IMG/VR virus record: IMGVR_UViG_3300027833_000126
Span: 1-35,085 of that record
Reading direction: 5' to 3' (one strand)
Origin: a virus
DNA length: 35,085 bases
A program made the position numbers and the translations under genes. Positions within the stretch are counted from its first letter, which is position 1. Each line of letters starts with the position of its first letter. Under the pieces are notes generated by a model. The model saw nothing but the letters and a program-made list of their open reading frames with translations, had not been told where the DNA came from and ran no database searches. Below are positions 4,204 to 35,085 of the stretch, one piece after another.

Positions 4204-4911
4204 ATGCCTAGAAAAAGAAATCCTAAGAGTAAAAACTACTTTACCCAAGAAACAGAAGATGCTATTGTATTATACAATGGCACTTCTGATACGGACGTAA
4301 AAAGTAGAATTTATCAAAATGAAATCCATTATCCGTTTTTTAAATTAACGGAAAATATAATCCATACCTTTAAATTTTATTATACGGAGGTAAATGAGAT
4401 TGAACATCTACAACACGAAGTAATCTGTTTCTTATTATCTAAGATTCATTTATTTGATCCTACAAGAGGTGCTAAAGCATATTCTTATTTTGGTACTATA
4501 GCTAAACGTTATTTAATCCTCCAGAATCAAAAGAATTACAAGAAACGTGTCCATAAAGCTCCAATCGATGAGTTATTTAAGGATGATACTCATACCTATA
4601 GTATGGATGAAGTAGGAGTAGCTAATGATCCCTTAAATATGTACATTAACTTATATGTGGACTACTGCTCAGAAAGATTATTTGAATTATTCCCTAAAAA
4701 ACACGATGCTGCTGTTGCAGATGCTATTTTAGAGTTGTTCCGTAAAAGAGAATATATTGACGTTTTTAACAAAAAAGCACTTTATATCTATATTAGAGAA
4801 ATGATAGATGTGAAAACTCCTAAAATCACAAAAATAGCTAACCAATTGTATGTTATATTTAAGGATAACTATATTTTCTATCTTGAAAACGGATATGTAG
4901 AATTCGAATAA
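4204..4911 (+). CDS. Late-transcription sigma factor, T4 gp55-like
   Basis: A 235-aa protein. Residues 69-105 (HEVICFLLSKIHLFDPTRGA then AYSYFGTIAKRYLI) match the sigma region 2.1-2.2 pattern, the core-polymerase-binding helices conserved in T4 gp55. The N-terminus is basic (MPRKRNPKSK). There is no region 4, as expected for gp55, which depends on a coactivator and the sliding clamp. T4 gp55 is 185 aa; this one has an extra C-terminal part (about 160-235) with helices rich in Tyr/Ile/Lys. Its role would be to direct host RNA polymerase to late promoters, and it sits immediately upstream of the baseplate operon and its candidate box at 4915. The family call is by motif and context. Confidence 0.8.
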   Translation: MPRKRNPKSKNYFTQETEDAIVLYNGTSDTDVKSRIYQNEIHYPFFKLTENIIHTFKFYYTEVNEIEHLQHEVICFLLSKIHLFDPTRGAKAYSYFGTIAKRYLILQNQKNYKKRVHKAPIDELFKDDTHTYSMDEVGVANDPLNMYINLYVDYCSERLFELFPKKHDAAVADAILELFRKREYIDVFNKKALYIYIREMIDVKTPKITKIANQLYVIFKDNYIFYLENGYVEFE

Positions 4912-4914
4912 GGT

Positions 4915-4924
4915 TATATTTATA
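4915..4924 (+). promoter_or_regulatory. Candidate late promoter box TATATTTATA for the baseplate operon
   Basis: A perfect TATATTTATA lies 4 nt after the sigma factor stop and 30 nt (first base to ATG) before the next gene. This leaves a roughly 20-nt A-rich leader with no Shine-Dalgarno. An ATG at 4926 is in another frame and closes quickly. No TTG element is present at the usual upstream spacing. Confidence 0.5.
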
Positions 4925-4944
4925 CATGAACAAACACTATAAAT

Positions 4945-5280
4945 ATGAGCCAACAATTCGAAAAAACAGTATTTGGTACTAAAAAATTCTCCGATTTACT
5001 CGAGGAAATTTATAATAACCAAAAGCGCCGCGAAACACAAGTTACCGCGCTTATATCCGAATTAAAACCGATGGTTACTGACATTGGTGACGCCACACTT
5101 ATTGTACCTCTTATTAAAGAATACATGGAAATTGGTGTTAAAAACGATGATGCACTAATCAAGATGGCTACGTTAGTACAACGTGCTTTAAATTCTTCTA
5201 ATGAAGAAGGTGGTTTAGGTATTTCTGATGATGAAAAACAACAGCTACTTGAGGAAATGGAAAAACTCCAAACTAAATAA
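4945..5280 (+). CDS. Helical protein of unknown function between sigma factor and baseplate genes (111 aa)
   Basis: A 111-aa protein with ATG at 4945 and an A-rich leader (ACACTATAAATATG). It is predicted almost entirely helical. The first 45 residues contain an amphipathic helix (FSDLLEEIYNNQKRRETQ), followed by a hydrophobic IVPLIKEYMEIGV segment and an acidic C-terminal coil (DDEKQQLLEEMEKLQTK). Size and position recall small late-transcription or baseplate-assembly proteins of T4, but no residue match to gp33 or another named protein could be seen. It ends 2 nt before the spike gene and is surely co-transcribed with it. Confidence 0.65.
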   Translation: MSQQFEKTVFGTKKFSDLLEEIYNNQKRRETQVTALISELKPMVTDIGDATLIVPLIKEYMEIGVKNDDALIKMATLVQRALNSSNEEGGLGISDDEKQQLLEEMEKLQTK

Positions 5281-5282
5281 CA

Positions 5283-6515
5283 ATGGCTGGAGTTCTAAAA
5301 TCAGGACAAACCCTATATAAAAGTTTAGGGAAAATTGTTAATAATTCTACTCGTGATGATTTAAAGAATCTTACGGGTAAATTATTGTCTGGAAGAATAT
5401 TAGAAATCGATCAAAGTGGTACTCCAACTAATGGGTACGCTCAAGTGCAAGTTTTAGATGAAATACAATTGGGTGGTGCTAATATTTTAGTTAATGTATT
5501 ACCTTTATTTCCTAATTTAAAAAATTATCCGTTAACTAATGAAACTGTATTAGTTATAGCTTTAGCCAATCGGGAATATAAAAATAATTTTAATACTTTA
5601 ACTTTTTATTATCTATCACCATTAAATTTATGGAATAGTAATCAATCTAACCCCATACCTTACCCAACAGAAACTGTTACTCCTGTAAGTCAAAATAAAG
5701 GAATTTTAGAGGTAGAGGCTGTTGGTAATCCAAACAAACCAACCTCATCATCTAATACAACATTTACCCCAGGTACTTATTTTAATGAAGATAATATTCC
5801 AAACCCTACATTTCCATATGAGGGTGATTATATTGTAGATGGTAGATTTGGTAATTCACTTAGATTTGGTAATACTGTTTCTAATAGTAATACATCTATA
5901 GAAAATAATTGGTCTATTACAGGATCAATAGGCGATCCTATTACCATTTTAACTAATAAAAAACATACAGAACAGCCTTTATTTAATTCTATTACAGAAG
6001 ATATTAATTTAGATGGTTCATCTGCTTATTTTACATCAACACAACAAATCCCAATTGAAGTATCATCTCAAAACGATTATTTATCGTATGATACTCCCCC
6101 TACAACACCTACCCAATATAATGGGGAACAAATTATTTTAAATTCCGGTAGATTATTATTTAATTCTACTTCAAATCACATATTACTATCATCAGCTAAA
6201 TCAATTAATTTAAATACAGTAGAATCTGTTAATATAGACGCTCGTACTAAAACAGTAATACAAACACCAGAATTATATTTAGGTGGTGTTGAAACATCTC
6301 AACCTGTAGTTTTAGGTAATGATTTGGTAGATCTATTAACTAAGATATTAAATGATTTAAGTTTTTTAACTGGGGCTCTTCAAAACCAATTAGGTGTTCC
6401 AGTTGGTACACCAATAGGACCTACAAATTTAGTAGCACAAGCTATAAATGATAAAATAGGAGGATATAAAGCAGAATTATCTAATATATTATCTAACACA
6501 ACTAAAACAGTATAA
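5283..6515 (+). CDS. Baseplate central spike / hub protein, gp5-like (no lysozyme domain)
   Basis: A 410-aa protein. Residues about 30-115 have the pattern of an OB-fold domain of spike proteins (GRILEIDQSG, YAQVQVLDE, VNVLPLFP). A flexible Ser/Thr/Asn/Pro region follows, then GDYIVDGRFGNSLRFG (181-196), a motif typical of gp5/VgrG-like spikes of marine T4-like phages. A beta-helix-like repeat region lies at 282-335 (IILNSGRLLF, ILLSSAKSINL, SVNIDARTKTV, PELYLGG). The T4 gp5 lysozyme domain is absent, so cell-wall cutting must come from another protein or not be needed. The C-terminus (345-400) is helical. The stop overlaps the next start by one base. It would form the trimeric membrane-piercing spike under the tail tube. 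Confidence 0.8.
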   Translation: MAGVLKSGQTLYKSLGKIVNNSTRDDLKNLTGKLLSGRILEIDQSGTPTNGYAQVQVLDEIQLGGANILVNVLPLFPNLKNYPLTNETVLVIALANREYKNNFNTLTFYYLSPLNLWNSNQSNPIPYPTETVTPVSQNKGILEVEAVGNPNKPTSSSNTTFTPGTYFNEDNIPNPTFPYEGDYIVDGRFGNSLRFGNTVSNSNTSIENNWSITGSIGDPITILTNKKHTEQPLFNSITEDINLDGSSAYFTSTQQIPIEVSSQNDYLSYDTPPTTPTQYNGEQIILNSGRLLFNSTSNHILLSSAKSINLNTVESVNIDARTKTVIQTPELYLGGVETSQPVVLGNDLVDLLTKILNDLSFLTGALQNQLGVPVGTPIGPTNLVAQAINDKIGGYKAELSNILSNTTKTV

Positions 6516-7954
6516 TGGCTTTAGATTTACTTACATTACAATCTCTTGAACGCACCAATGCTGCTGTAATAAATGATGCTCAGAATACTATCATAAGGGT
6601 TTCGGTTATAGACAGAGAAGAAATTAGATTAGGTAATGAAATTATCTTCGAAACCCTTTATGTAGTAGCAGCAAATAAAAATGGAAAACGTTATTCTTAT
6701 GTAGTTCTTGTAACTGGTCCTAATTTAAGACAAAAAGAAGAATATGGTGCAACTGAAGCTATTAATAGAGTCCAACAATCTGCTTTTTCTTCTTTTGATA
6801 GAGAATATCTACAAATAGCAGAGGATATATATTATGATGAAGAAGATAATGAATTAATAACTTTTGATGTTGAAATATATGATATAGAATCTAAATTTAG
6901 AGCTTCCCTTAATATTCTACCCTCAATTGAAGTTTCAACCCCACCCCCACCACCTCCACCACCTCCCAAGCCTAAGGTTGTAGTAGAACAAAGAAAGCAA
7001 AAAGAACAACTCAAACAGGATAGAATTGAACAAGCTGAACTAACTTCTACTGATATAGAAGGTATTAATAATGCTGTAGCTGAAGACCAAAAACCTACAG
7101 GATTACAAAGATTAGGTTCATTAATCCTAAAACAAAGTCAAAAATTATCTAAATTTGTTATACCACTAGCGTTTAATCTTATTAAAGAATATGGTATAGA
7201 TAAACTAGAGGCAGCTTTAGAAGAGGAAAGTGATAGTATAGATGAATTAAGAGAACAACTTAAAGAAGAATTTTGTAATGTTCAATTACCTCAAATTATA
7301 GCAAAACGAAATAATGCTGTAGACTATCTAAACAACACAGGTAGAATATTAGATACATTAACTGTTAGTGTTAATTTTGGAGCTTCATTTGCTGAGATTT
7401 TAGAAACACTAATTAAAATATTAAGGGGAGCTAGCTTTACAATTAATCAAGCTGCAAAAGCAATCCCATTAATCCCAGGTGCTATTGTTGCCTCTGTTAA
7501 CGATTTAAGTACTATCGCAGATACTATAACTTTTAAACAAGATGGTACTCCAAACATTCCACCTCTTAAAATTACAGCAGCTCAAGTATCTCCTGCATTT
7601 GCTACAGTGCAATCAACTATTGTAAGGTGTGTGGACTTGTTAGATAGATTAGATATTTTAATTACATTATGTGACCCAAATGCTAATTTAACAGGTATAT
7701 CAGACTCAATTAACACTGTATATGATAATGAATTAATAGCTGCAGCAACAGAAAATGATGGTACGTATAAAGGATTTATATTAGAAATAGAATCCATTCC
7801 ATTTACAGATACAGTAAATAAAAATAGAGCAGTAGGTAAAAATAGATCGGGTATTATATTAATATCAACAGAATCTTCATTTACCTCCAACCCTCAAGTA
7901 TTAATCGACGAACTTAAATTTATTATTGACAGGGATGATTTGAAGTCCTACTAA
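6515..7954 (+). CDS. Tail/baseplate structural protein with a nine-proline linker (479 aa)
   Basis: It has two parts joined by nine consecutive prolines (P143-P151). The N-terminal ~140 residues are beta-rich with a YSYVVLVTGP core. The C-terminal ~320 residues are mainly helical: a charged coil just after the linker (VVVEQRKQKEQLKQDRIEQ), an acidic coil (EAALEEESDSIDELREQLKEE) and hydrophobic helices such as AAKAIPLIPGAIVAS. The TAATG overlap with the spike gene indicates coupled translation and a shared assembly. It could be a hub or hub-connecting protein, or carry a short tape-measure-like function; neither is shown. No family name was recognised with confidence. Nine prolines would probably need EF-P for efficient translation. 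Confidence 0.7.
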   Translation: MALDLLTLQSLERTNAAVINDAQNTIIRVSVIDREEIRLGNEIIFETLYVVAANKNGKRYSYVVLVTGPNLRQKEEYGATEAINRVQQSAFSSFDREYLQIAEDIYYDEEDNELITFDVEIYDIESKFRASLNILPSIEVSTPPPPPPPPPKPKVVVEQRKQKEQLKQDRIEQAELTSTDIEGINNAVAEDQKPTGLQRLGSLILKQSQKLSKFVIPLAFNLIKEYGIDKLEAALEEESDSIDELREQLKEEFCNVQLPQIIAKRNNAVDYLNNTGRILDTLTVSVNFGASFAEILETLIKILRGASFTINQAAKAIPLIPGAIVASVNDLSTIADTITFKQDGTPNIPPLKITAAQVSPAFATVQSTIVRCVDLLDRLDILITLCDPNANLTGISDSINTVYDNELIAAATENDGTYKGFILEIESIPFTDTVNKNRAVGKNRSGIILISTESSFTSNPQVLIDELKFIIDRDDLKSY

Positions 7955-7969
7955 ATTTACATATTTATA
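7939..7969 (+). promoter_or_regulatory. Candidate promoter TTTG-N17-CATATTTATA (near-leaderless class)
   Basis: CATATTTATA at 7960-7969 is followed by ATC and the ATG at 7973. The 17-mer CATATTTATAATCATGA is repeated exactly at 29926-29942, upstream of and into another gene. TTTG at 7939-7942 lies 17 nt upstream, a little short of the usual 19-20. The -33 part overlaps the last codons of the preceding gene. The start codon is 13 nt from the first base of the box. Confidence 0.5.
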
Positions 7970-7972
7970 ATC

Positions 7973-8335
7973 ATGAAAGCGACAGAATTTAAAAAACTCA
8001 TTAAAGAATCAGTACGAGAAGTTATCCAAGAGGAATTAAAAGAAATTCTTCTAGAAGCTGTCCGTTCACCTAAAACTGTAGTAACAGGAACAACCCCAGT
8101 TCCATCAACCTCTCATGCTTTACCTGACGATGATAAAGTAAAATTAAGAGAAAATATGATGGGAGTTTTAGATGGAATGAAGCGTGGTGAAGATACCATG
8201 TCCTTTACTTCAGCTAATGCTCAAGGTATAGGAAATTCTTTACAAGTACAACCAGGAATGGATACAACAAACGGCCCACTTCCAGCAGGTAATGTTGGTT
8301 TAGATCAAATCATGGGTTTAATGAAAGGTAAATAA
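7973..8335 (+). CDS. Small virion-associated protein with (L/I)xE-rich N-terminal helix (120 aa)
   Basis: The N-terminal 30 residues form a charged amphipathic helix starting MKATEFKKLIKESV and continuing to EILLEAV. They contain several (L/I)xE-type triplets such as IKE, IQE and LLE, the kind of site cut by T4-type prohead proteases. The middle is Thr/Pro/Ser-rich (VVTGTTPVPSTSHALP) and the C-terminus is Gly/Met-rich (LDQIMGLMKGK), giving a low-complexity, probably extended protein. It lies between the poly-proline protein and gp25 and shares a TAATG junction with gp25. The internal M325 segment of the protein at 32385 starts similarly (MKKSELKEMIKAAM). A small structural or assembly role is likely, but no family was recognised. 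Confidence 0.65.
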   Translation: MKATEFKKLIKESVREVIQEELKEILLEAVRSPKTVVTGTTPVPSTSHALPDDDKVKLRENMMGVLDGMKRGEDTMSFTSANAQGIGNSLQVQPGMDTTNGPLPAGNVGLDQIMGLMKGK

Positions 8336-8742
8336 TGGCATTTAATCCACTCGTAATACCAACTACTGATTTTCAACCCAATATTGGTGTTGGAGTGAAT
8401 TTACCATTTTCAACACCCCAATGTTTTGTAAGTAATTATACAAGTAAAGATGCTATTAAAAACAACTTAATTAATTATTTCTTAACAGAACCTGGGGAAA
8501 GATTAGATAATCCCGAATTTGGGGGTGGTTTAAGAAGTTTTATTTTTGAACAAATTACAAATGGTACTTTATCTGGCATTGAAGACGATATAAGCTCTAA
8601 AATATCAACTAATTTTCCTTCAGTATCTATAAGTGCTATTAACGTTGGTGCTGTTGAAGATACTAATACTATTAATGTAGTTATAAAATATACAATACCT
8701 CAACAAGGGGTATCTGACGAAATCGAAATTAACTTTGGATAA
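8335..8742 (+). CDS. 25: Baseplate wedge protein gp25 (gpW/gp25 family)
   Basis: A 135-aa protein of the size expected for gp25. Residues 36-72 carry the family core: a helix (SKDAIKNNLINYFLTEPGER) ending in the conserved EPGER, then LDNPEFGGGLRSFIFE. The C-terminal half alternates beta strands (INVGAVEDTNTINVVIKYTI). gp25 forms part of the wedge core that clamps the first sheath layer in contractile tails. It lies directly before gp6 with a 1-base overlap, the same order as in many T4-like and other contractile phages. Recognition by motif, length and neighbours is strong. Confidence 0.93.
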   Translation: MAFNPLVIPTTDFQPNIGVGVNLPFSTPQCFVSNYTSKDAIKNNLINYFLTEPGERLDNPEFGGGLRSFIFEQITNGTLSGIEDDISSKISTNFPSVSISAINVGAVEDTNTINVVIKYTIPQQGVSDEIEINFG

Positions 8743-10595
8743 TGGCACAAGCGAGAGACATAAAATACTTAAATAGAGACTTTGCTGATCTAAGATCATC
8801 ATTAATTAATTACTCTAAAACATACTTCCCAACAACATATACGGACTTCACAGAAGCTTCTCCGGGTATGATGTTTATGGAAATGTCATCTTATATTGGT
8901 GATGTTCTTTCATTTTACCAAGATAACCAAATACAAGAAACATATACTCAGTTTGCTCGTAAATTTGAAAATTTATTTGATTTAGCATATGTAATGGGAT
9001 ATAAACCCCAAGTTACAGGAGTTGCTACTGTTGGTGTAGATTTTTACCAAACAGTCCCATCTATAATATCAGGACCTTCCATTTACCAACCAGATTATAA
9101 TTATGCCTTATTAATAGGAGAAAATGCACAAGTTGGTTCTTCAGCAAATGCACAGATTAATTTCTTAACAGAAGATCCTATTGACTTTACGGATTCTAGC
9201 TCTTTAAACCCTACAGAAGTAACAGTTTATACTGTAGATGCTAGTAATAATCCAACAACATACTTACTTAAAAAGACAAGAAACGCTATTTCATCAACAA
9301 TCAACACTACAATTATTAGTGCTGGTTCCACTCCACAAGAGTTTTTTACAACTACTATAAATGCTCCTAATATTGTAGGTATTTTAGACATAGTAGATTC
9401 TGATGGTAATGTATGGTATGAAGTACCTTATTTAGCTGAGGAAATGGTATATGACTCGATTCGTAATACCAATCCAAACGATCCTAATAATTATACTAAT
9501 GAAGGTTTATCACCTTATTTACTACAATTAAAGCAAACACAACGTAGATTTGCTGCTCGTTTCATTAATAGTGGTTCTTTAGAAATCCAATTTGGTGCTG
9601 GTACGTCTCAAGATGTAGAAGAAGAAATTACACCTAATAGTGATAATGTAGGTTTAGGTTTACCATTTGAAAAAAATAAACTTACAACAGCATATTCACC
9701 TACAAACTTTATATTTACTCCTACCTATGGTATAGCACCAACAGGGAACTTAACTGTAAGATATTTAACTGGAGGTGGGGTTGCTGCTAACGTTAATGCT
9801 AATACGTTAACTAATATAAAACAAATAAACAAAACATTTGTTAATTTTTCTTCAACTGATAGTAGTGGTTTATACCAACAATCATTTAATTCATTGATAA
9901 CAAACAATCCTGATGCTGCTTCCGGAGGTAGAGGTGGAGATTCTATAGAAGAACTAAGACAGAATATTATTTCTAACTTTAGTACTCAGTATAGAACAGT
10001 AACACCTGATGATTATACTGTAAGAGCGTTATCTATGACTCCTAAATATGGAAGGATAGCTAAAGTTTATACTGAAAAATCCAAAGCATCATCTAATACA
10101 GGTACTAATATTGATTTATATACTTTAGCTTTTAATAACAATAATAACTTAACAACAGCATCATCAACATTAAAACAGAATCTATCAACGTACCTATCTC
10201 AATTTAGAGTTATTGGTGATTCGGTAGCTATTAAAGATGCTTTTGTTATTAACATAGGAATAACTTTTGAGATTATTACTTTACCTAACTTTAATAATAA
10301 TGAAGTTTTAAGGAAATGTATTATATCACTTCAAAATTTCTTCAATATTACAAATTGGCAAATTAACGAACCTATAATTTTAAGAGATATTACAAATCTT
10401 TTAGATAATATTGAAGGTGTCCAAACTGTTAAAAACGTATTAGTTAGCAACAAAACTAGCGGAGATTATTCCACATATTCATATGATGTAGAGGGTGCAA
10501 CAATTAATCAAGTAGTTTACCCATCAATTGATCCAATGATATTTGAAGTTAAATTCCCAAATAGTGATATTAAGGGTAAAATTGTAAACATATAA
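8742..10595 (+). CDS. 6: Baseplate wedge protein gp6 (baseplate J-like)
   Basis: 617 aa, close to T4 gp6 (660 aa). The N-terminus has the typical wedge helix and TDFTEASPGMMFMEM (35-48), then SYIGDVLSFYQDNQIQE and MGYKP (85-89). The later part carries a GGDSIEELRQ motif (about residues 397-406), followed by TPDDY, as in baseplate-J proteins. gp6 dimers form the ring connecting baseplate wedges around the hub. It starts one base inside the gp25 stop (TAATG). No truncation or frameshift is seen. Assignment rests on motif, length and position next to gp25. Confidence 0.9.
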   Translation: MAQARDIKYLNRDFADLRSSLINYSKTYFPTTYTDFTEASPGMMFMEMSSYIGDVLSFYQDNQIQETYTQFARKFENLFDLAYVMGYKPQVTGVATVGVDFYQTVPSIISGPSIYQPDYNYALLIGENAQVGSSANAQINFLTEDPIDFTDSSSLNPTEVTVYTVDASNNPTTYLLKKTRNAISSTINTTIISAGSTPQEFFTTTINAPNIVGILDIVDSDGNVWYEVPYLAEEMVYDSIRNTNPNDPNNYTNEGLSPYLLQLKQTQRRFAARFINSGSLEIQFGAGTSQDVEEEITPNSDNVGLGLPFEKNKLTTAYSPTNFIFTPTYGIAPTGNLTVRYLTGGGVAANVNANTLTNIKQINKTFVNFSSTDSSGLYQQSFNSLITNNPDAASGGRGGDSIEELRQNIISNFSTQYRTVTPDDYTVRALSMTPKYGRIAKVYTEKSKASSNTGTNIDLYTLAFNNNNNLTTASSTLKQNLSTYLSQFRVIGDSVAIKDAFVINIGITFEIITLPNFNNNEVLRKCIISLQNFFNITNWQINEPIILRDITNLLDNIEGVQTVKNVLVSNKTSGDYSTYSYDVEGATINQVVYPSIDPMIFEVKFPNSDIKGKIVNI

Positions 10596-10597
10596 TT

Positions 10598-10903
10598 ATG
10601 GGACTAAAACAAAGATATAATAAGGATGTTGCAAATCGTGTTTCTCCTATTATTAGAAACCCTAATACCCCTATTGAAGCACCAACTTCAAACCCTACAT
10701 TAATTAATACTTTTAATTCAACTAGCCTGGATTTAGAAGCCCCATCCCCATTAGGAGGTGCTATTAATGTTGCTTATAATTCCCAAGTAGGTAGCGAATA
10801 CAAAAGTTTTACAACAACTCAACCTTTCACTCCTAAAAATACTTATATAGATAACCTCCAGAATGGTGATTTAATAAGAAGGGCCAGCAAGCCCCTTAAA
10901 TAA
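10598..10903 (+). CDS. Small baseplate-operon protein of unknown function (101 aa)
   Basis: ATG at 10598, two bases after the gp6 stop. The protein starts MGLKQRYNKDVANRV. It is rich in Asn, Pro, Ser and Thr (NPNTPIEAPTSNPTLIN), lacks long helices or hydrophobic segments, and ends in a basic tail (LIRRASKPLK). This looks like an extended linker or capping peptide in the baseplate. It precedes the DNRLRE-like protein by 6 nt. No family was recognised. Its conserved-looking position between gp6 and the next structural gene supports it as real. Confidence 0.65.
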   Translation: MGLKQRYNKDVANRVSPIIRNPNTPIEAPTSNPTLINTFNSTSLDLEAPSPLGGAINVAYNSQVGSEYKSFTTTQPFTPKNTYIDNLQNGDLIRRASKPLK

Positions 10904-26150: not shown

Positions 26151-26951
26151 ATGATATCATTAGTAAGACTTTTAAATGAAGTAGAGGGAAAACCTAAGGC
26201 TATTATATTAGCTGGTGCTCCTGGTGCTGGTAAAGGAACTATTTTAAAAGGTTTAGACTTAGGTGGTTTAAAGATAATGAATATCGATAACACGTTTGTT
26301 GATAAACTTAAACAAGCTAACGTATCTCTGGATTTAAAGAATGCTACTCCTGAAGAAAGGAGTGAGCAAGCTAAATCAATGGCTGCAGCTAACAAGGAAT
26401 TTAAAGGTGAAGTACAAGCTACTATTGAAGGTAGAGAATCATTTATATTAGATGGTACAGCAGCTTCTTATAAACAAACAGCTTTACTTAAAGAGCAGTT
26501 AGAGGAAGCAGGGTATAGTGTACTGATGCTTTACGTTTATACTGATTTAGAACGTTCATTAAAACAAAACCAAGATAGATTTGAAAAATCAGGTGGTGAA
26601 GATAGAAGTTTAGCACCTGCTATTGTATTACGTACTTGGAAAGGCGTAACAGATAATCTAAAACCATATGCTGATTTATTTGGTAATAATTTTACAGCAG
26701 TAGCTAATACGTTAGAAGGTAATAAAATAAAAGATATTGAAGGGATTCTTCAAACATATCTAGAACCATTTGCTCCTAAAAACACCAAACCAAAAACACC
26801 AGCCCAACAGGAAAAATCTGATAAACAAAAAGCAGAATTAAATACTGAAATTCAAGCTATGTTAAATGATGAATTTTTAGAGGATATACTTTCTTACACG
26901 GTATCTAAAGATGAAGCTCAAAGTAAATTACAGAATTTTCTACGTTCATGA
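26151..26951 (+). CDS. P-loop kinase, zeta-toxin-like (266 aa)
   Basis: A Walker A motif GAPGAGKGT is at residues 22-30, followed by IMNIDNTFVDKL (D46) and a FILDGTAASYKQT stretch (98-110, D101). A LMLYVYTDLERSLKQNQDR region contains the lid-like arginines. This is the pattern of small kinases of the zeta-toxin/AAA_33/chloramphenicol-phosphotransferase type. The natural substrate cannot be read. The first ~10 residues (MISLVRLLNE) precede the kinase core and end in LNE, like the tags of nearby proteins. The C-terminal 60 residues are charged and helical (KTPAQQEKSDKQKAEL). The stop overlaps the next start (ATGA). It may be a packaged effector or a metabolic kinase. Confidence 0.75.
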   Translation: MISLVRLLNEVEGKPKAIILAGAPGAGKGTILKGLDLGGLKIMNIDNTFVDKLKQANVSLDLKNATPEERSEQAKSMAAANKEFKGEVQATIEGRESFILDGTAASYKQTALLKEQLEEAGYSVLMLYVYTDLERSLKQNQDRFEKSGGEDRSLAPAIVLRTWKGVTDNLKPYADLFGNNFTAVANTLEGNKIKDIEGILQTYLEPFAPKNTKPKTPAQQEKSDKQKAELNTEIQAMLNDEFLEDILSYTVSKDEAQSKLQNFLRS

Positions 26952-29344
26952 ATCAACTAACAAAACATTTAGTAGACGGTATCCTTAATGAGGATAAAAA
27001 TGAAGTAATAGCTTTATATGCTGGTGGTTTCAAACCACCTACATCAGGACACTTTTCAGTTATAGAAGAAGCATTAAAACAATACCCAGAAATAGATAAA
27101 CTAATAGTACTAGTAGGCAGTGGTGTTAGAGATGGTATTGAACAAGCTGAATCAATTATAACTTGGGAAATCTATCAAAACTATCTACCTATGAAGGTAG
27201 AAATACAAGCAGCAACTAAACCCCCAATCGGAGCAGTTTATAGTTATGCTAAAGATAATCCTGAAGATACAATATATTGGATTTTAGGTGCTAGAGATGG
27301 TAAAGATGAAGACTTAGCAGATATAGCTTCACGTACTAAAACTCTTGATACAGCAGTAGATAAGTATAATAACGTTGAAGTTAAAGTAATTACAACTTCT
27401 AATGCTGGTATGAGCGGTACTAATGCTCGTAAAGCATTACTATCAGGAGATAAAGAAGCATTTTTTAAATTCTTACCATCTCAAGTAGAGGAAAAAGAAG
27501 AAATATTTAATATCTTAAGACCAGCCGTCAAAGAAACAGAAGACCCAGATGATGGAAAAGCTGCTCCTTATGGTTCAGGCTATGGTGAAGTAAACGAAAA
27601 CGCTTCGTATTCTAAAGATATAGATATTCAAGGTAAAATCGATCAGTTAACCCAACATATGATCGATAAAGGATATAATATTGAACCACTACCCGGACTT
27701 GAATTTGTAGATGGCGATACTGAAAACGCTCGGGATTTCTTCGGAAAGACGGCGTACTATGATCCAATCAACAAGGTTATTGTCCTATATACTGAAGGGC
27801 GTCATCCCAAGGATATAGCGCGTAGTTATGCGCATGAAATGATTCACCATATCCAAAATCTAGAAGGTAGATTAGAAGGTATTGCAACTACAAATACTCA
27901 GGAAGATGATTATCTAAACGATATTGAAGCCGAAGCAAACCTAAAAGGTACAATGACGTTTAGAAATTGGACTGATAGCTTAAATGAAATACAAACCCCC
28001 GCTAAAGAAGAAGATGTCAATCCTAAAGAATTAAAAATAGGTATTGAAGTTGAAATGGAGCATACCGACTCACAAGCTAAAGCAAAGGTCATTGCGTTAC
28101 AACATTTAGCAGAAGATCCTAAATACTATACTAAATTGAAATCACTAGGGTTAGAAGAAAAGAAAGAAAAAGATCCATTTGGTTTAAATCAATTCGCTCG
28201 CGAGTTAATGACTGAAGGAGCTTATGATGCTTTAACTACTAAACTAACTAAAGCTACAATCAATAAATGGGTTGAGGATTCTAAAAAGAAACCGATGCCT
28301 AAAAAATCATTTGTTGATATTGATGTTGACGATGTAGATGGTAAAGGTAGAGAAATTGAATTCAATTACGTTGGTATGATTGAATTTGATAAAAAAGTAG
28401 ACGGATATGAAGTAGATGGAACCTCCAATTCAGGCGAAGATGAAGGTAAAATGACATTCATAGCTACATTATTCAAAGTAAATCCTAAAGTATTACCACA
28501 AGCGTGGTCTAAAATCTCAGCTGATGTTTCCGATGTTATACGACACGAAATTGAGCACCAAACACAAGCCGGAGACAATACACGTTCTTCTAAACAAATG
28601 GAAGACGATATTGATATTCGTGATTTAATTAATAAAGCAAAAATACTCCCTCAGAAAAACTATTATATGTTAGAGAAGGAGATAGATGCTATGCTCCAAG
28701 GTTTATATTTAAAAGCTAAGAAAACTAAAAAACCATTTAAGGATGTGATTAGTAATTATTTAGATATAGCCCCAGGTCTTGAAAAAAAAGAAGATAAAGA
28801 ACTTGTGCTAAACCTTTGGAGAAGCAGAAGAGGGGCATTATCTTTACCGGTATTTGAAAATAAAAATGAGGTTATGGACTATAAAATTTACCTAGATATG
28901 GATGGGGTGTTGGTTGATTTTGATCAACAATTTAAAGATTTAACAGGTATGGCACCTAGAGATTTTGAAGCTAAACATGGCTCTAAAGGTTTTTGGGAAG
29001 CAATTGAAACAGCAGGTGTTGGTTTCTGGCGAGGTATGAAATGGATGCCTGGTGGTGAAGCACTTTATAATCGTGTTGCTAAATACGATCATGCTTTATT
29101 ATCATCCCCTTCACGTAGTGAAACATCTAAAATAGGAAAACGTTTATGGAGACGAGATAAAACTCCAAGCACTAAACTAATCTTATCCAGATCATATTTA
29201 AAGAAAAATTACGCTTCCCCTCTTAGTATATTAATCGATGATAGAGAAAGTAATATTAAACAGTGGGAAGATGCTGGTGGTATAGGTATTTTATACATAT
29301 CACCTAATCAAGTTAACAAAGCATTAGAAAAATTAGGTTTATAG
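26948..29344 (+). CDS. Five-part fusion: nucleotidyltransferase, two HExxH metalloprotease-like domains, DUF5661-like, HAD phosphatase (798 aa)
   Basis: Residues 1-15 (MNQLTKHLVDGILNE) look like a tag. Residues 20-190 form a cytidylyl/nicotinamide-nucleotide adenylyltransferase-like domain: YAGGFKPPTSGH (24-35, TxGH) and MSGTNAR (155-161). Residues ~220-340 hold a zincin motif HEMIH (296-300), with a downstream NDIEAEA (324-330) that can give the third ligand. Residues ~360-405 resemble DUF5661 (IGIEVEMEHTD, HLAEDPKYYTKLK). Residues ~425-625 hold a second HEIEH (533-537), with EKEIDAM (576-582). The C-terminus from 643 is a HAD fold (LDMDGVLVDF, D650/D652; ILIDDRESN, D764/D765). It overlaps the kinase gene (ATGA). 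All expected catalytic residues named are present. Such a fusion is unusual; the combined role is unknown. Confidence 0.8.
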   Translation: MNQLTKHLVDGILNEDKNEVIALYAGGFKPPTSGHFSVIEEALKQYPEIDKLIVLVGSGVRDGIEQAESIITWEIYQNYLPMKVEIQAATKPPIGAVYSYAKDNPEDTIYWILGARDGKDEDLADIASRTKTLDTAVDKYNNVEVKVITTSNAGMSGTNARKALLSGDKEAFFKFLPSQVEEKEEIFNILRPAVKETEDPDDGKAAPYGSGYGEVNENASYSKDIDIQGKIDQLTQHMIDKGYNIEPLPGLEFVDGDTENARDFFGKTAYYDPINKVIVLYTEGRHPKDIARSYAHEMIHHIQNLEGRLEGIATTNTQEDDYLNDIEAEANLKGTMTFRNWTDSLNEIQTPAKEEDVNPKELKIGIEVEMEHTDSQAKAKVIALQHLAEDPKYYTKLKSLGLEEKKEKDPFGLNQFARELMTEGAYDALTTKLTKATINKWVEDSKKKPMPKKSFVDIDVDDVDGKGREIEFNYVGMIEFDKKVDGYEVDGTSNSGEDEGKMTFIATLFKVNPKVLPQAWSKISADVSDVIRHEIEHQTQAGDNTRSSKQMEDDIDIRDLINKAKILPQKNYYMLEKEIDAMLQGLYLKAKKTKKPFKDVISNYLDIAPGLEKKEDKELVLNLWRSRRGALSLPVFENKNEVMDYKIYLDMDGVLVDFDQQFKDLTGMAPRDFEAKHGSKGFWEAIETAGVGFWRGMKWMPGGEALYNRVAKYDHALLSSPSRSETSKIGKRLWRRDKTPSTKLILSRSYLKKNYASPLSILIDDRESNIKQWEDAGGIGILYISPNQVNKALEKLGL

Positions 29345-29938: not shown

Positions 29939-30178
29939 ATGAGATTTAACCCGGGACAAAATAGGAAAGTAGTAAAAGGTAAAACTTATATTAAAGATTT
30001 ACCACAAATCCAATTAACACCGGTTAAAGAGATTAAAGAAGAAATTAAAGAAAAATCTAATGAGTCAATTCAACACGAGCAAGTGGTTCAAAACCCAATA
30101 CCTAAAGGAAGCCAACCTGTACGAAGAAAAGTCAGATCTAGCAGCAAAAGCAATAGATCAGGCAATAGCGGGAGTTGA
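29939..30178 (+). CDS. Small basic protein overlapping the next gene (79 aa)
   Basis: ATG at 29939 directly after a promoter-like box. The first ~40 residues are MRFNPGQNRKVVKGKTYIKD and LPQIQLTPVKEIKEEIKEK; the remainder, which overlaps the next gene in another frame, is low-complexity and basic (RRKVRSSSKSNRSGNSG). The overlap is 119 nt (30060-30178), unusual in a genome where overlaps are 1-4 nt. Either the first half is the true conserved domain and the overprinted tail has little constraint, or the gene is a broken or frameshifted N-terminus of the following one. The promoter-like box supports expression. No family was recognised. Confidence 0.5.
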   Translation: MRFNPGQNRKVVKGKTYIKDLPQIQLTPVKEIKEEIKEKSNESIQHEQVVQNPIPKGSQPVRRKVRSSSKSNRSGNSGS

Positions 30179-30500
30179 CGAATCTCTTAGTTATTCTGAT
30201 TTTGCTAAAGCTGTAGCTACTATACTTAAAGATGAGTATGGTGCTCATAATTTTAACCCATTTATGGAGGTATTACATGCTGAATTAGGTATAAATGAAG
30301 AAATCTCTGATTACGAGATGGTAGTATATAAAGTAGAAGGTATTACAGCCGATACAGATGAAGGTGGCCCAGACGAGCCATTTGAAATGGAAGTTAAATT
30401 AGAGGCTTCACTCTCGGATGCTGAAGTAAAAAGTGCTATTAGAGATGCTGCTCGTAGAGAACAAGGTAAGTTGTATAAACTTGATTACAAGAAAGCATAA
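30060..30500 (+). CDS. Unknown protein with tag-like N-terminus (146 aa)
   Basis: Starts MSQFNTSKWFKTQYLKEANLYEEKSDLAAK when read in two pieces: MSQFNTSKWFKTQYLKEANL and YEEKSDLAAK. The opening resembles the tags at 32108 and 32385 (short, aromatic, then LxE sites LKE and LYE). Residues ~30-75 are helical (LSYSDFAKAVATILKDEYGA). From ~80 on, YEMVVYKVEGITADTDEGG and MEVKLEASLSDAEVKSAIRD suggest a compact alpha/beta domain. It ends with a 1-base overlap with the next gene. VYKV followed by acidic residues also occurs in the middle unit of the protein at 32385 (MVYKVGNVDG). Possible internal virion protein; function unknown. Confidence 0.6.
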   Translation: MSQFNTSKWFKTQYLKEANLYEEKSDLAAKAIDQAIAGVDESLSYSDFAKAVATILKDEYGAHNFNPFMEVLHAELGINEEISDYEMVVYKVEGITADTDEGGPDEPFEMEVKLEASLSDAEVKSAIRDAARREQGKLYKLDYKKA

Positions 30501-32071
30501 TGGAAGATATTAAACAAATACAAGAATTCTTTTCTAAACCAGTAAAAGAAAATTCAAGACGCTCTCCTGATTTTATTCTAACAGAACCAGCAGAGATAAA
30601 GTTCACAGAATCATATGGCTCCGGTATTAAAGCACCCGGTGTTTTACACCACGCAAATGAGGGGGCATTTTTGGGAGCAGAAGGTGCTTATATTTTCGAT
30701 TTTCCTGGAGGTACTTTTTATGTAGATGAAGATAAAGAGGAAGCTATTCGAATTTATCCTCTTAAAGACCAATCTGAAGAACTTCAATTAGCACTTGATT
30801 ATACTCCATTTGCTCCAAAATACGAGACATGGAAAAGTTGGGTTAAAGAGCCTAAAACATTAGAAGAAGCAAATGTTTCATGGTCTACAATACACTCATC
30901 ACCCCCAGAATCTGATTTAATAGCTTCAGATATTCAAAAAGCAATGAATCAAAATAAAGGAGATGAAGCTATAATTCACCAACTTAAGATTGCTAGAAGA
31001 AAGATGAATGTTGGTGATTTAAAGAAAGCCAAAGAAATCGTTAGTAGATATTTAGCTGTTGGTTTAGAAGAACTAAAAGAAGCTGACCTAAACGACCCAG
31101 TTGCTATGAAAATGAGAGCAGCTAAAGATAAGCTAGCTAAAATGAGAAAAACAAATGCTGGTGATGATGGTAATGATAAATTCTTTAAAAATTCAACTAA
31201 ACTTGCTACATTAAATAAAGCACGTAAACAATTAATGCGTGATATGGAGCAAGAAGCTGAACCAGAAGGTGGCTCAATTGCTGATGAATATGGAAGAAAA
31301 CTAAATAAAATTGATGCTGCAATCGCTAAACTATCAGGTAGAAAAGAGATGGACTATGATACCGCTGTCGGTAAAGTAAACGAATACGATGTATACATGC
31401 CTTCACAAGAAGAGGTAGATAATTTCTTTAATAGCCATGATAGTTTAGGTTCACATTACTTAAATAACAAACCTGTTATGGGTCAAGAAGCTACATTTAA
31501 TTTAATGCCTATTGAACCCTGGGATGAATATGATTACTCTAACTGGAAGGCTCTACAAGCAGATACATTAGAAGAAGTTACTCGTTATAGTGGTTTCACT
31601 AGAAACCCAGAAGATCCAGATTCCGAACCATTTAAACCAACAAAATCAGTATCGGAATTTACAGAAGATTTAAGAGCATTATTTGGTAAATTTAAAGGTG
31701 ATTTAAAAAATCCTGAATTTATAAAAGGAGTAGCTCAAGTAATGGTTAATTGGAAACCACTTTTAAGAAGTCAATTAGACGAAGTTCAAAAAGGACACAA
31801 CGAAAAAGTATCTAAATCATTAAAAGAAGAAGAGGGCTACTCTAAATTCTTAAAAACAGACGACAACCCAGAAGGTAAAACTAAAGGTTTAACTACAAAA
31901 GCCATGAATAAAATCCTTATGAATGTAATTAAGGATCTTAAAGAAGGAGAACCTGGTTTGTGGGACAATATTCGTGCTAAAAGAGCAAGAGGAGAAAAAC
32001 CATCTAGTAAAAACTCAAAAGCTTACAAATCAGCTGTAGCTGCTGGAAAGCGCATCAATAAGGAAAAATAA
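30500..32071 (+). CDS. Multi-segment protein of unknown function with C-terminal GLWDNI motif (523 aa)
   Basis: Starts one base inside the previous stop (TAATG). It has distinct segments. Residues ~1-110 are beta-rich (GAYIFDFPGGTFYVDEDKEE). From ~125 to 195 a helical block (ANVSWSTIHSSPPESDLIAS) is followed by a Lys/Glu coil, then a charged helical region (KMRAAKDKLAKMRKTNAG). A Tyr/Asp-rich block (VDNFFNSHDSLGSHYLNN) and further helices lead to the basic C-terminal end GLWDNIRAKRARGEKP (486-501). The last motif is familiar from marine-phage virion proteins, where it is often near the C-terminus. LEEA, LKEA and VNEY sites separate several segments. No catalytic motif was recognised. An internal or structural role is guessed. 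Confidence 0.65.
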   Translation: MEDIKQIQEFFSKPVKENSRRSPDFILTEPAEIKFTESYGSGIKAPGVLHHANEGAFLGAEGAYIFDFPGGTFYVDEDKEEAIRIYPLKDQSEELQLALDYTPFAPKYETWKSWVKEPKTLEEANVSWSTIHSSPPESDLIASDIQKAMNQNKGDEAIIHQLKIARRKMNVGDLKKAKEIVSRYLAVGLEELKEADLNDPVAMKMRAAKDKLAKMRKTNAGDDGNDKFFKNSTKLATLNKARKQLMRDMEQEAEPEGGSIADEYGRKLNKIDAAIAKLSGRKEMDYDTAVGKVNEYDVYMPSQEEVDNFFNSHDSLGSHYLNNKPVMGQEATFNLMPIEPWDEYDYSNWKALQADTLEEVTRYSGFTRNPEDPDSEPFKPTKSVSEFTEDLRALFGKFKGDLKNPEFIKGVAQVMVNWKPLLRSQLDEVQKGHNEKVSKSLKEEEGYSKFLKTDDNPEGKTKGLTTKAMNKILMNVIKDLKEGEPGLWDNIRAKRARGEKPSSKNSKAYKSAVAAGKRINKEK

Positions 32072-32107: not shown

Positions 32108-32158
32108 ATGAATAATTTCGACTTAACAAAATATTTAGCTGAAGGTAAGCTATACGAG
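32108..32158 (+). repeat. Direct repeat, copy 1 (N-terminal tag coding region)
   Basis: These 51 bases encode MNNFDLTKYLAEGKLYE. By hand alignment they match 32385-32435 at 46 of 51 positions. Three of the differences are silent and two change residues (Y9/F9, Y16/H16), so the protein sequence is under constraint or the duplication is recent. Copy 2 begins the next gene, 277 bp downstream. Confidence 0.85.
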
Positions 32159-32365
32159 AATGTATTAGCCCAAAAACTTAGAGACGAAGCAACCCAACCA
32201 GATTCAAAAGTAGGTGCTGCTATATTTAACAAATATGCTAAAAAAGTAGAAAAAGCTGACAAAGAAGATTATGTAAAACTTCTAAAAGCTATGGAAAATG
32301 AATTAATATCCAAACACCCTGATACATTTAGTGGTGAAGATGATATCCCAGGAAGTTTCCTATAA
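32108..32365 (+). CDS. Small tag-bearing protein of unknown function (85 aa)
   Basis: Starts MNNFDLTKYLAEGKLYENVL, followed by a helical, lysine-rich body (KKVEKADKEDYVKLLKAMEN) and an acidic end (DTFSGEDDIPGSFL). The first 17 residues match those of the next protein except for two positions. They contain LAE and LYE, matching the (L/I)xE cut-site pattern of T4 prohead protease, so the mature protein could be the part after LYE. The length after such cutting would be 68 residues, comparable to small internal head proteins. No enzyme motif is seen. It has a candidate promoter at 32072. Confidence 0.65.
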   Translation: MNNFDLTKYLAEGKLYENVLAQKLRDEATQPDSKVGAAIFNKYAKKVEKADKEDYVKLLKAMENELISKHPDTFSGEDDIPGSFL

Positions 32366-32384: not shown

Positions 32385-32435
32385 ATGAATAATTTCGATT
32401 TAACAAAATTTTTAGCTGAAGGTAAATTACACGAG
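32385..32435 (+). repeat. Direct repeat, copy 2 (N-terminal tag coding region)
   Basis: These 51 bases encode MNNFDLTKFLAEGKLHE, 46/51 identical to copy 1 at 32108-32158. A third, more diverged in-frame copy of the second half (MAAEGKLHE) is encoded at 32895-32921 inside the same gene. Confidence 0.85.
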
Positions 32436-33965
32436 GGAACAATGGCTGAAGCCTTAAATAAGCCCCTAGTCCAATTAGGTCCTGCTCTAGAAAAAAGAAT
32501 GAAATCTTCAAACTTTGAGGTTAAAATCATCCCAAACCAAATCTCAGTCCCAAGCGACGCAAAAGATGCTATTTCACAAAATTCCAAACTAGCAGCAATT
32601 GCTTTCGGTGAATCCGGAGGTCGGGAATTTATGGAAGTAGTAGTTAACAAAGACAGATTAAAAGATTTAACCAAAGTTAGAGACTATTTTAACATACCTT
32701 CAGGAGCATATGGTCCTGATAAGGATATGGGTTGGGTAGTAAAGAATGTCCGTAATGTTAATGCTGGCGATATTACAGCAAGCAAGGCAGAATCCGTAGG
32801 TAATGTAGGTATACTAACTTTCTTTAGAGCTGAAAAAGCTAATGATGATAGTACAGGGGTGTTCGGTACTCAAAGTATTAAAAGTACTAATAAGATGGCT
32901 GCTGAAGGTAAACTACACGAATTTACAGATGCAATCTCCCCAGAAGAAGTTAGGGATATGGCTCAAATGGTAGCTGATGCTTTTACTGCAGAAGATGCTG
33001 AAGGTGATAGATTCTCAACTTACATGGTTTACAAAGTAGGTAATGTAGATGGAATGTCATTCGAACTAGATACAGAAGCAACAGAACAAACACCAGAAGA
33101 CGATGCTAAATATGGTACTGGTGAAGGCTGGGGTGGTATGTTTAGAGTTAAACCAACAGATAACGGGTATGAAATTAGAAACAGCGAAAAAGGTGGCTTA
33201 GTAGCTACTATGGATGGTTCAGGTTTTACAATGTTAGATGCTGAACAATCAAAAGCTGAAATGGGTGGAGATACCGACTACATGGAACGTAGAAGAGAAA
33301 CAGACGATTACATAGAAGAAGGTGAAGAAGAAGTTAAAGAAATTAAATCAAATAAAATGAAAAAATCAGAACTTAAAGAAATGATCAAAGCCGCAATGAT
33401 GGCTGACACAGCAGTTTACGAGGCAGAAGACGTTGAAGTAACAGATGATGAAGATATTGATGTTGATATCGAAAAAGATGTTAAAGTTGATGACGAAGAG
33501 TCAGAAGTAGACATCGATATAAATGCTGAACTTCCAGGCGAAGATGGTGATGTAACTGAAGTTTTAGCTTTACTTATGAAATCACAACAAGCTGCTGAGG
33601 ACATAGGAGATGAAAAACTTATGGATCAAATAGGTAATACAATTACTTACTTTACTCGTTCTCACGTTGCTAATGTAAACGAAGCTGATTTAGATATGGA
33701 CTTAGATAGCGCTGCTGGTAGAGCTAAAGAAGCTACAATCGGATTGGACGAAACAGAAGAACTAGACGAAAAGAAACAAGGATATAACGACGAGTTAGAT
33801 GATTCTGAAGGTGCTAAGCATGGTAAGAAGAAACAAGACATGGCTCAACGTCGTGCTGATTCTGAAAACATGGAAAAAGCAGATGGTAAGAGAAAATATT
33901 CAGGAGATAAGTCAAAAGATCTAAATGAATCAGTAACTTTCCCAATGTGGAATAAAATTAAATAA
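32385..33965 (+). CDS. Three-unit tag-bearing protein, possible polyprotein (526 aa)
   Basis: Unit 1 (1-170) starts with MNNFDLTKFLAEGKLHE, then an unknown alpha/beta domain (FEVKIIPNQISVPS, EFMEVVVNKDRL, VGILTFFRAEKAN). Unit 2 (171-324) starts with M171-A-A-E-G-K-L-H-E, a repeat of the tag core, and has TYMVYKVGNVDGMSFEL. Unit 3 (325-526) starts MKKSELKEMIKAAMM after an A-rich stretch (AAATAAAATG at 33350-33359) that looks like a gene leader. It holds an acidic Asp/Glu/Val tract (345-393), a conserved-looking helix LALLMKSQQAAEDIGDEKLM and a charged basic tail. This looks like the fusion of three once separate small proteins, or a polyprotein cut after LHE sites. No enzyme motif is seen. Confidence 0.7.
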   Translation: MNNFDLTKFLAEGKLHEGTMAEALNKPLVQLGPALEKRMKSSNFEVKIIPNQISVPSDAKDAISQNSKLAAIAFGESGGREFMEVVVNKDRLKDLTKVRDYFNIPSGAYGPDKDMGWVVKNVRNVNAGDITASKAESVGNVGILTFFRAEKANDDSTGVFGTQSIKSTNKMAAEGKLHEFTDAISPEEVRDMAQMVADAFTAEDAEGDRFSTYMVYKVGNVDGMSFELDTEATEQTPEDDAKYGTGEGWGGMFRVKPTDNGYEIRNSEKGGLVATMDGSGFTMLDAEQSKAEMGGDTDYMERRRETDDYIEEGEEEVKEIKSNKMKKSELKEMIKAAMMADTAVYEAEDVEVTDDEDIDVDIEKDVKVDDEESEVDIDINAELPGEDGDVTEVLALLMKSQQAAEDIGDEKLMDQIGNTITYFTRSHVANVNEADLDMDLDSAAGRAKEATIGLDETEELDEKKQGYNDELDDSEGAKHGKKKQDMAQRRADSENMEKADGKRKYSGDKSKDLNESVTFPMWNKIK

Positions 33966-34008: not shown

Positions 34009-34179
34009 ATGAACACTCAAGAATTAAAAGAACAACTAGACGCATTGTACGAATCATTTACTATGGAGCACGCAGGTACTTCAAAAGCAGCACACGGACG
34101 TGCTCGTAAAGCATTAGGTGGAATCAAAAGTTTGATTTCTGATTATCGTAAAGCATCTGTTGCTCAAGATAAAAAGTAA
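34009..34179 (+). CDS. Histone H1-like (Hc1-type) small protein, tentative (56 aa)
   Basis: Starts MNTQELKEQLDALYESFTME and continues HAGTSKAAHGRARKALGGIK. It has 13 Lys/Arg residues, concentrated in the second half. The pattern of an N-terminal helix, then xKAAxGRxRKALxxIK and a further helix (LISDYRKASV) is like the histone-H1-like/Hc1 proteins common in Bacteroidetes, which are short, basic and bind DNA. The family link is from residue pattern only. If right, it could compact or coat phage DNA or be a packaged head protein; LYE at 13-15 fits the tag-cutting pattern. The leader is A-rich with no Shine-Dalgarno. It ends 3 nt before the next gene. Confidence 0.55.
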   Translation: MNTQELKEQLDALYESFTMEHAGTSKAAHGRARKALGGIKSLISDYRKASVAQDKK

Positions 34180-34182
34180 AAC

Positions 34183-35085
34183 ATGAACGAACGTAAACTT
34201 ACCAAATCTGAACTAGCTAAACGCGAAGATATCATCATGAAAATGAAGGATAACAAGCGTGCGTTAGTTCAGAAATATGGTAAGGATGCGGAAGCAGTAA
34301 TGTATGGTCGCGCTACCAATTTAGCAAAAACAAAAGCAGAAGCAATGGATCAAGATAAACTAAGAGAAATGATTAAGGATGCTTTACAGAATCCTAAAAA
34401 AGCAGATTTAAATAAAGACGGTAAACTATCTGACTACGAAGAAAAACGTGGTGCTGCTATTGAAAAATCAATGGTTGATGAAATTGATTTAGATCTTAAA
34501 GGTGGAACTCAATCTAATACAGATGATGCTGAAGCCGGTATTTTAGGTGCTGAAGACGTTTTAGGTTTAGAAGAAGGTTCTTCAAGTGAAGAAAAACGCA
34601 TCGCAATGTCTGCTATCAAAAGATTAGCTAAATACAGAGGAGTTAGTGATTCAGAAGCTAGACAAGATTTAATTAGAGCTGCTAAAGAAGTAGGTGATCT
34701 AAAAGAAAATTTTAATCAAGTAGATAGCCAATTCGAAGATTTATCTCAAGTAGTAAAAAATATTGCTCATGTAGGTGAAATGTCTATTGAAGACGCAGCT
34801 ATGGGAGCAATTGATCATATTGGTGAAGAATTTAATGTTGACCTTGATTTTGGTCGTATGAATGAAGACCTAGATTTAGGTCACGAAGACAACGAACCAG
34901 GCATGTTAAAATCTGATCTATATCGTATTGGAAAATATGCTATGGATTTATACCAAATGATGGATGAATTTGAAGCAGGATCTGAAGAAGTAGATTTCCC
35001 ACATTGGTGGCAAGCTAAAATCATCAGAGCTAAAGATTCATTAGTAGGTGCTAAACATTATTTAGACTTTGAAGTTAAAGAACCA
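34183..35085 (+). CDS. EF-hand-containing virion-type protein, N-terminal part (3' end outside window)
   Basis: ATG at 34183 opens a frame that runs to the window end (301 codons, no stop). Residues 1-60 are a basic helix ([20 protein letters not shown]). Residues 75-86 ([12 protein letters not shown]) fit an EF-hand calcium loop at all main positions: D75, N77, D79, G80, L82, S83 and E86. Residues 115-135 are acidic, 140-180 helical. Residues 243-296 ([47 protein letters not shown]) are a region often seen in virion proteins of marine T4-like phages. A structural or head-associated protein is likely. The single EF-hand suggests calcium-stabilised assembly, an inference. Confidence 0.7.

Follow-up and report, generated by a model that had tools for sequence, protein, structure and literature searches.

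A 526-residue open reading frame of an uncultured T4-related phage fuses separately encoded head-cluster units and is a candidate precursor of head cargo

Comparison with related phages establishes that the 526-aa open reading frame (ORF) encoded in the window, i.e. the whole stretch of 35,085 bases analysed here, is a fusion in which separate head-cluster units are joined and inner tags are retained; one of its joints, that between units A and B (A|B), rests on one contig. With a probability of roughly 60%, this ORF is a precursor of head-core or cargo units that would be carried into the prohead and cut there by the prohead protease.

The record is a virus fragment, and the window's own head genes, including any protease, lie beyond its end. 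Its source is an uncultured, probably flavobacterial, T4-related phage. By two probes, the nearest cultured relative is Flavobacterium phage vB_FspM_immuto_2-6A (NC_055915; hereafter immuto): the baseplate wedge protein of the window shares 45% identity with that of immuto over its full length, and the major capsid protein of a locus related to the window (L082) shares 62%. The last 11 kb of the window correspond, in the same gene order, to the immuto stretch that lies between the tail genes and the genes for terminase, portal, prohead protease, scaffold, and major capsid protein. Since immuto is the nearest cultured relative and the gene order matches, the host is probably a flavobacterium. 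No match to the 526-aa protein was found in immuto, and a literature search found no immuto proteome. A scan of viral contigs identified 69 loci that encode a relative. Unit B is present in 11 loci, i.e. eight distinct relatives (L001, L004, L005, L006, L007, L009, L010, and L063) and three near-identical copies (L002, L003, and L008). An S77 protease gene (Peptidase_S77, gp21-type) is present in 12 of 27 related records, including all eight of those of at least 59 kb, and gp070 of immuto is annotated as a gp21-type protease (Peptidase_S77).

The original prediction had read the ORF as three fused tag-bearing proteins. Both copies of the tag core AEGKLHE that it named, at residues 11-17 and 173-179, were confirmed, and a third unit does begin at Met325 (33357), with MKKSELKEMIKAAM preceded by GAAATTAAATCAAATAAA. 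A degenerate DNA pattern for the core matched three places in the window, distributed between this ORF and the neighbouring 85-aa gene, and the reversed control matched none. The remark that an A-rich stretch resembles the leaders of genes here also holds, because Met325 and Met171 rank at the 97.8th and 97.2th percentiles of internal ATGs, respectively, by a start-context score that was trained to separate 504 gene starts from 2982 internal ATGs (AUC 0.955, by resubstitution). The likeness between the Met325 start and that of the protein at 7973 seems limited to a short amphipathic helix, and no conclusion here draws on it. The parts of the ORF are listed in Table 1.

Table 1. Features of the 526-aa ORF and its neighbour gene (positions in the window)
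Feature	Position	Strand	Basis or remark
Fused precursor ORF (candidate), 526 aa	32385..33965	+	Open throughout
N-terminal tag MNNFDLTKFLAEGKLHE, residues 1-17, L/I-x-E ends at 12 and 17	32385..32435	+	Tag also on other cargo
Unit A, residues 18-170	32436..32894	+	Homologous to C-terminal domain of 760-866 aa proteins
Hybrid joint, residues 168-179: K-I/M-AAEGK (A tail) + LAEGK(L)xE (B tag)	32886..32921	+	Alignments
Unit B, residues 180-324	32922..33356	+	Relatives; predicted folded domain
Unit C, residues 325-451: helix MKKSELKEMIKAAM, acidic stretch, helical hairpin	33357..33737	+	Separate gene in 9 relatives
V-Y-E then AED, residues 344-346, candidate hydrophobic-x-E|A-E site	33414..33422	+	C homologues
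Unit D, residues 452-514, module KKQGYNDELDDSEGAKHGKKKQDM...	33738..33926	+	Other head-cluster proteins, many relatives
C-terminal tail LNESVTFPMWNKIK, residues 513-526, L-N-E ends at 515	33921..33962	+	Alignment, motif scan
Neighbour gene, 85 aa, same tag, begins MNNFDLTKYLAEGKLYE	32108..32365	+	Homologue elsewhere relative to C

Every unit looks coding by pairwise dN/dS (Nei-Gojobori): against L001 the ratio is 0.47 in B but 0.11 in C, and for unit A it is 0.30-0.39. PHROGs yielded no family for the ORF or for its last 202 aa. A Pfam search of the ORF gave nothing over the cut-off and no peptidase domain, the matches to DUF2895 (E 0.0057) and Sheath_initiator (E 0.03) both lying below threshold, and tblastn of the protein against 50,697 phage records returned nothing. 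Structure models, which are of low confidence overall (pLDDT 65.8 for the tag plus A and 60.5 for B plus C, from shallow alignments of 5 and 18 sequences, respectively), predict folded parts at about residues 27-150 (an alpha/beta domain in unit A), 182-295, and 388-428, and a helix at about 478-499. Foldseek gave two matches at E 0.001 or better for the tag-plus-A model, yet with a TM of 0.27, and none at that level for B plus C. In a second structural alignment, unit A matched many phage neck and tail-terminator proteins, the best being 3fz2_D (Z 7.3, rmsd 3.4, 94 residues aligned), a Z at the usual background level for such models; the B-plus-C model reached Z 6.2 over a 58-residue helical part. 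No function is assigned to either model on these predicted folds.

Used alone as a query, unit A identified two loci (L081 and L082), and a looser pattern scan, which gave at least 120 stretches, yielded three further loci (L098, L148, and L162) after a tblastn filter. L098 and L162 encode nearly the same protein, and the distinct unit A proteins therefore number four. In all four, unit A is the C-terminal domain of a 760-866 aa protein, the gene of which lies directly upstream of the S77 protease gene; the unit is preceded by I-N-E-A-L-N and ends K-I-A-A-E-G-K-K-Y-K-Y-x-K-K/R-K. When 29 records were searched, matches to unit A occurred only in the two source records, and the unit was not found in the 27 others, several of them protease-bearing. 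The immuto counterpart of the A-bearing protein has 360 aa and is without unit A. Because unit A lies inside another protein in every case, was not found in the 27 other records searched, and is missing from the immuto counterpart, these comparisons mark it as itself a mobile head-cluster unit.

The A|B joint of the window reads ...IKSTNKMAAEGKLHEFTDAIS..., the corresponding stretch of the A homologues ...IKSTDKIAAEGKKYKY..., and that of the B homologues MNNFDLTKFLAEGKLHEAMS...; the joint thus consists of the left half of the former and the right half of the latter, meeting in AEGK, with about 12 bases of DNA (GCTGAAGGTAAA) common to both sides. Split gene forms, sought in related phages, are present for every unit of the ORF, so the proposed fusion of separate genes stands, but the proposed loss of stops does not at A|B: a lost stop codon was rejected as the origin of this joint, the left half being A's tail in all four A homologues and the right half B's tag. 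Met171 was likewise rejected as a relic of B's start, its position belonging to A's tail and reading ATA (Ile) in all four A loci read. Recombination at the common stretch would explain A|B better than the loss of a stop, since a deletion between two AEGK stretches in neighbouring genes would give exactly the observed joint, in frame. The layout predicted as ancestral is found in L004, where two genes, each starting MNNFDLTKFLAEGKL, lie 12 bases apart. Full-length homologues of the same build, which would speak against fusion, are absent for A|B, a joint found only in the window: all eight distinct B-bearing relatives are without A, and all four distinct A-bearing proteins are without B. For B|C, such homologues exist in part, the joint being intact in all eight relatives and C standing alone in nine others.

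In each of these eight relatives, the B gene carries an N-terminal tag (MNNFDLTKYLAEGKLLKE and similar) followed directly by B, and then by MKKSELKE and unit C in one chain. Nine other distinct relatives encode unit C separately, and there its first residue is the Met of MKKSELKE. By this distribution, B|C is an older fusion, common to all B-bearing relatives. In several fused proteins the residues ahead of the joint are KSNK or close to it, and all eight keep the ATG at the start of C, with start-context scores at the 94th-99.8th percentile of internal ATGs. The kept ATG and the high scores fit either a former leader turned coding or an internal start still in use. Unit D occurs together with the tag and C in a 232-aa protein of L013, and otherwise, in the loci read, in proteins of about 400 aa encoded just upstream of the prohead protease or in a scaffold-type protein upstream of the major capsid protein. 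Synonymous divergence between the window and L001 is pS 0.31 in B versus 0.61 in C (permutation p 0.0008); the values are 0.44 versus 0.66 against L004 (p 0.010) and 0.49 versus 0.58 against L007 (p 0.17). Neighbouring genes vary likewise. Because B and C differ in this way from the same relative, the pieces of the ORF seem to have separate histories. The head-cluster neighbours of the ORF (30060-32071 and 34183-35085) are also mosaics of short recurring modules, e.g. AYRKKRMAAGEKSSAYLSGRAVKVCKGQM and DLDLGHQDNEPHMLK, as judged from homologues in L001 and L004-L011.

Searched with a pattern for the tag, the ORFs of the loci yielded 37 tagged proteins in 20 cargo families (38 in 21 before the removal of one spurious reverse-strand ORF), and the cargo that follows the tag is unrelated between families at the threshold used. 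Single-linkage clustering merged 235 of 555 ORFs into one family via common modules, and its family counts were set aside. The search pattern partly prescribes the first L/I-x-E of the tag (E at residue 12) but not the second, whose E lies at residues 15-19 and which was found in 31 of the 34 tagged proteins of the main set versus 128 of 600 others. L009 contains six tagged genes (4652-10836) and L221 three in a row (1132-2714), all with unrelated cargo, and in L016/L066/L209 the 85-aa cargo that neighbours the 526-aa ORF is found again, in a different position with respect to C. A zeta-toxin-like P-loop kinase (PF06414, E 3.5e-17) is encoded in the window (26151-26951) and in L062 (400-1221). 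It starts MISLVRLLNEVEGKPKAIIL in the window, a head that ends L-N-E, versus MDNFNLKKYLTEGSLLKEAQDNPKAIIL, which is the present tag, in L062, and the likeness between the two proteins starts just after the L/I-x-E motif, i.e. the address peptide differs and the enzyme part is kept. This kinase is likely to be an injected head cargo enzyme.

In the immuto head cluster, 17 of 25 proteins have an L/I-x-E with E at residues 8-26, against 5.2 expected from other parts of these proteins (17 was reached in 0 of 500 draws); in the region upstream of the cluster the count is 12 of 52, against 16.0 expected. Among the head genes of the window it is 7 of 12, resting on 11 proper reads because one gene, correctly 34009-34179, was read one base off. 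A C-terminal motif, R-[FMWY]-x-[KQR]-[LI]-A-G-[IL], was found in 44 proteins of three families, 43 of which have an L/I-x-E within the last 24 to 8 residues (105 of 547 among others). This motif may be a C-terminal counterpart of the tag, with few independent cases because 33 of the 44 proteins form one family, the scaffold-type proteins. The 526-aa ORF does not carry it at its C-terminus, the tail being FPMWNKIK. In L085 (13676-14140), RRMQKLAGI, otherwise C-terminal in scaffold-type proteins, is N-terminal and followed by I-T-E.

Eight L/I-x-E motifs are present in the 526-aa ORF, ending at residues 12, 17, 179, 312, 332, 456, 462, and 515. All lie at unit borders, with none in 395 interior residues (mean of 3.3 in shuffles, 2.5% of which had none), an enrichment that is suggestive only because the zones were drawn after the motifs had been seen. 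Seven of the eight, the exception being that at 332, fall in stretches with pLDDT <50, between predicted folded parts. Over whole gene sets, interior depletion of the motif was non-discriminating, with z values of -1.8 for the head genes of the window, -1.2 for the immuto core, and also -1.66 for the immuto tail. Most C homologues have, ahead of the acidic stretch, a hydrophobic-x-E|A-E site that corresponds to V-Y-E|A-E at residue 346. The head site of C itself, LAE in most separate C proteins, reads MMAD in the window and MLED in L001; given the replacement of L-A-E by M-M-A-D, this cut site has probably been lost in the window. The original prediction of a polyprotein with internal maturation sites draws its support solely from the motif positions.

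Three other explanations were weighed against a precursor that is cut. One is that the fusion, though real, stays uncut, giving a multidomain core or scaffold protein in which the inner tags are only relics of its making. The degraded head site of C in the window and L001 fits this explanation, as do the frequent replacement of L by M at P3 in fused forms and the age and stability of B|C in all eight relatives. We nevertheless regard it as unlikely: LHE at 179 is intact although the joint needed AEGK only, the hydrophobic-x-E|A-E site ahead of the acidic stretch is kept in most C homologues, and the units are without interior L/I-x-E. Smaller still is the chance that A|B is a chimera of assembly or amplification, which we consider very improbable. 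Such an artefact would agree with the occurrence of the joint in a single contig and with a crossover at AEGK that is in frame by itself, but the exact common stretch is only about 12 bases, and the usual assembly words are longer. Moreover, the aligned A copies share 44-48% identity with unit A of the window, which therefore does not stem from contamination with one of them and which stands behind its own tag and leader.

Separate products might also arise from internal translation starts, at Met325 for unit C and perhaps at Met171 for unit B, an explanation compatible with a precursor and, in our judgement, somewhat unlikely. Start context is the whole basis of the proposal that translation begins at 32895 and 33357: both ATGs rank high among internal ATGs, and that of C is kept at or above the 94th percentile in every fused relative. 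The annotation of T4 gene 21 includes an internal start, and that gene yields a second product. In C, however, the sequence from the ATG onwards also codes for a conserved helix, a possible reason at the protein level for keeping the ATG, and the counterpart of Met171 is ATA (Ile) in the A loci read.

For the reading that we prefer, a precursor cut in the prohead, the following course is proposed. Each unit descends from a protein encoded apart in related phages, and the tagged ones appear to be addressed to the prohead interior through a short targeting peptide at the N-terminus that ends in L/I-x-E. Tandem tagged genes for A and for B plus C, the latter an earlier fusion, would have been joined in frame via their AEGK-coding stretches (A's tail and B's tag), and C would have gained unit D and another tail. 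The first tag would then take the whole chain into the prohead core, where a gp21-type protease would cut after L/I-x-E at the unit borders and release A, B, and C/D. More tentatively, the tag may belong to a cassette system for head cargo, a bacteriophage counterpart of viral polyproteins, in which its DNA would serve both as an address label and as a recombination joint. Cargo genes would be inserted, lost, swapped, and fused in frame at the tag, with the prohead protease doing the cutting; such fusions would work at once because every joint supplies its own protease site. This idea is possible and rather doubtful.

In T4, IPII and IPIII have in common a capsid targeting sequence of 10 N-terminal residues, which gp21 removes by cutting after L/I-X-E, and Alt is described as cut at both ends (PMC9026906; PMC9958956). 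The present tag is like the targeting sequence of IPI, IPII, and IPIII in being a short N-terminal peptide on unrelated proteins that ends L/I-x-E, and a gp21-type protease is encoded here in the records of relatives. The best of 25 comparisons of the tag with the T4 targeting peptide was reached by 19 of 500 shuffles, which is non-significant over 25; the tag therefore looks like a T4-type capsid targeting sequence in layout, and descent from it is not implied. Unlike the T4 internal proteins, which are single units, the tags recur inside one chain and are found with at least 20 cargo families. The 526-aa protein is not a proven member of the T4 internal proteins, its place in the head and its cleavage being what we infer from sequence. 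Acidic unit C is similar to T4 gp67 in composition (by eye), and units A and D occur in proteins encoded between the portal and the major capsid protein, a further resemblance to the T4 core proteins gp22, gp67, and gp68. No sequence match to these three proteins was found. R-F/M/W-x-K-L-A-G is common to the C-termini of scaffold-type proteins and of C proteins encoded separately, with L/I-x-E before it; the copy in the window ends FPMWNKIK instead. Polyvalent proteins combine many domains in a single virion-delivered chain and have been likened to polyproteins (PMC5512222), a build that the 526-aa chain may share, although Pfam and PHROGs gave it no known enzymatic or effector domain. In the account given there, embedded peptidase domains release the parts, whereas here the phage head protease would cut.

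Loading of the T4 head via a targeting peptide is known and is used in engineering. The cases described in the literature consulted here are single tagged proteins, from which a natural chain with several address and cut joints would differ. A literature search brought up no account of a head precursor in phages that carries more than one inner targeting peptide, a weak negative because subscription journals were mostly outside its coverage. If true, the precursor reading would show how phages gain and combine injected proteins. By a simple N-terminal rule, many marine flavophage genes that lack annotation would be flagged as probable cargo of the head, and the cutting rule of this S77 family would become directly testable in cultured immuto.

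Other fused genes were observed. An 841-aa protein (L085 16007-18532; immuto 114006-116531) joins modules encoded separately in relatives and, like the 526-aa ORF, keeps an inner head, KKVSKSELKE, at the joint with a gene that is separate elsewhere. A second fused gene of the window (26948-29344; related stretches at L085 9132-12456 and L055 3187-3711) encodes a 798-aa chain comprising a NadR-like nucleotidyltransferase, an AHEMIHHIQ stretch (metallopeptidase-like by eye), DUF5661, and a 5'-3' deoxyribonucleotidase, the last of which has its own gene in immuto and L055.
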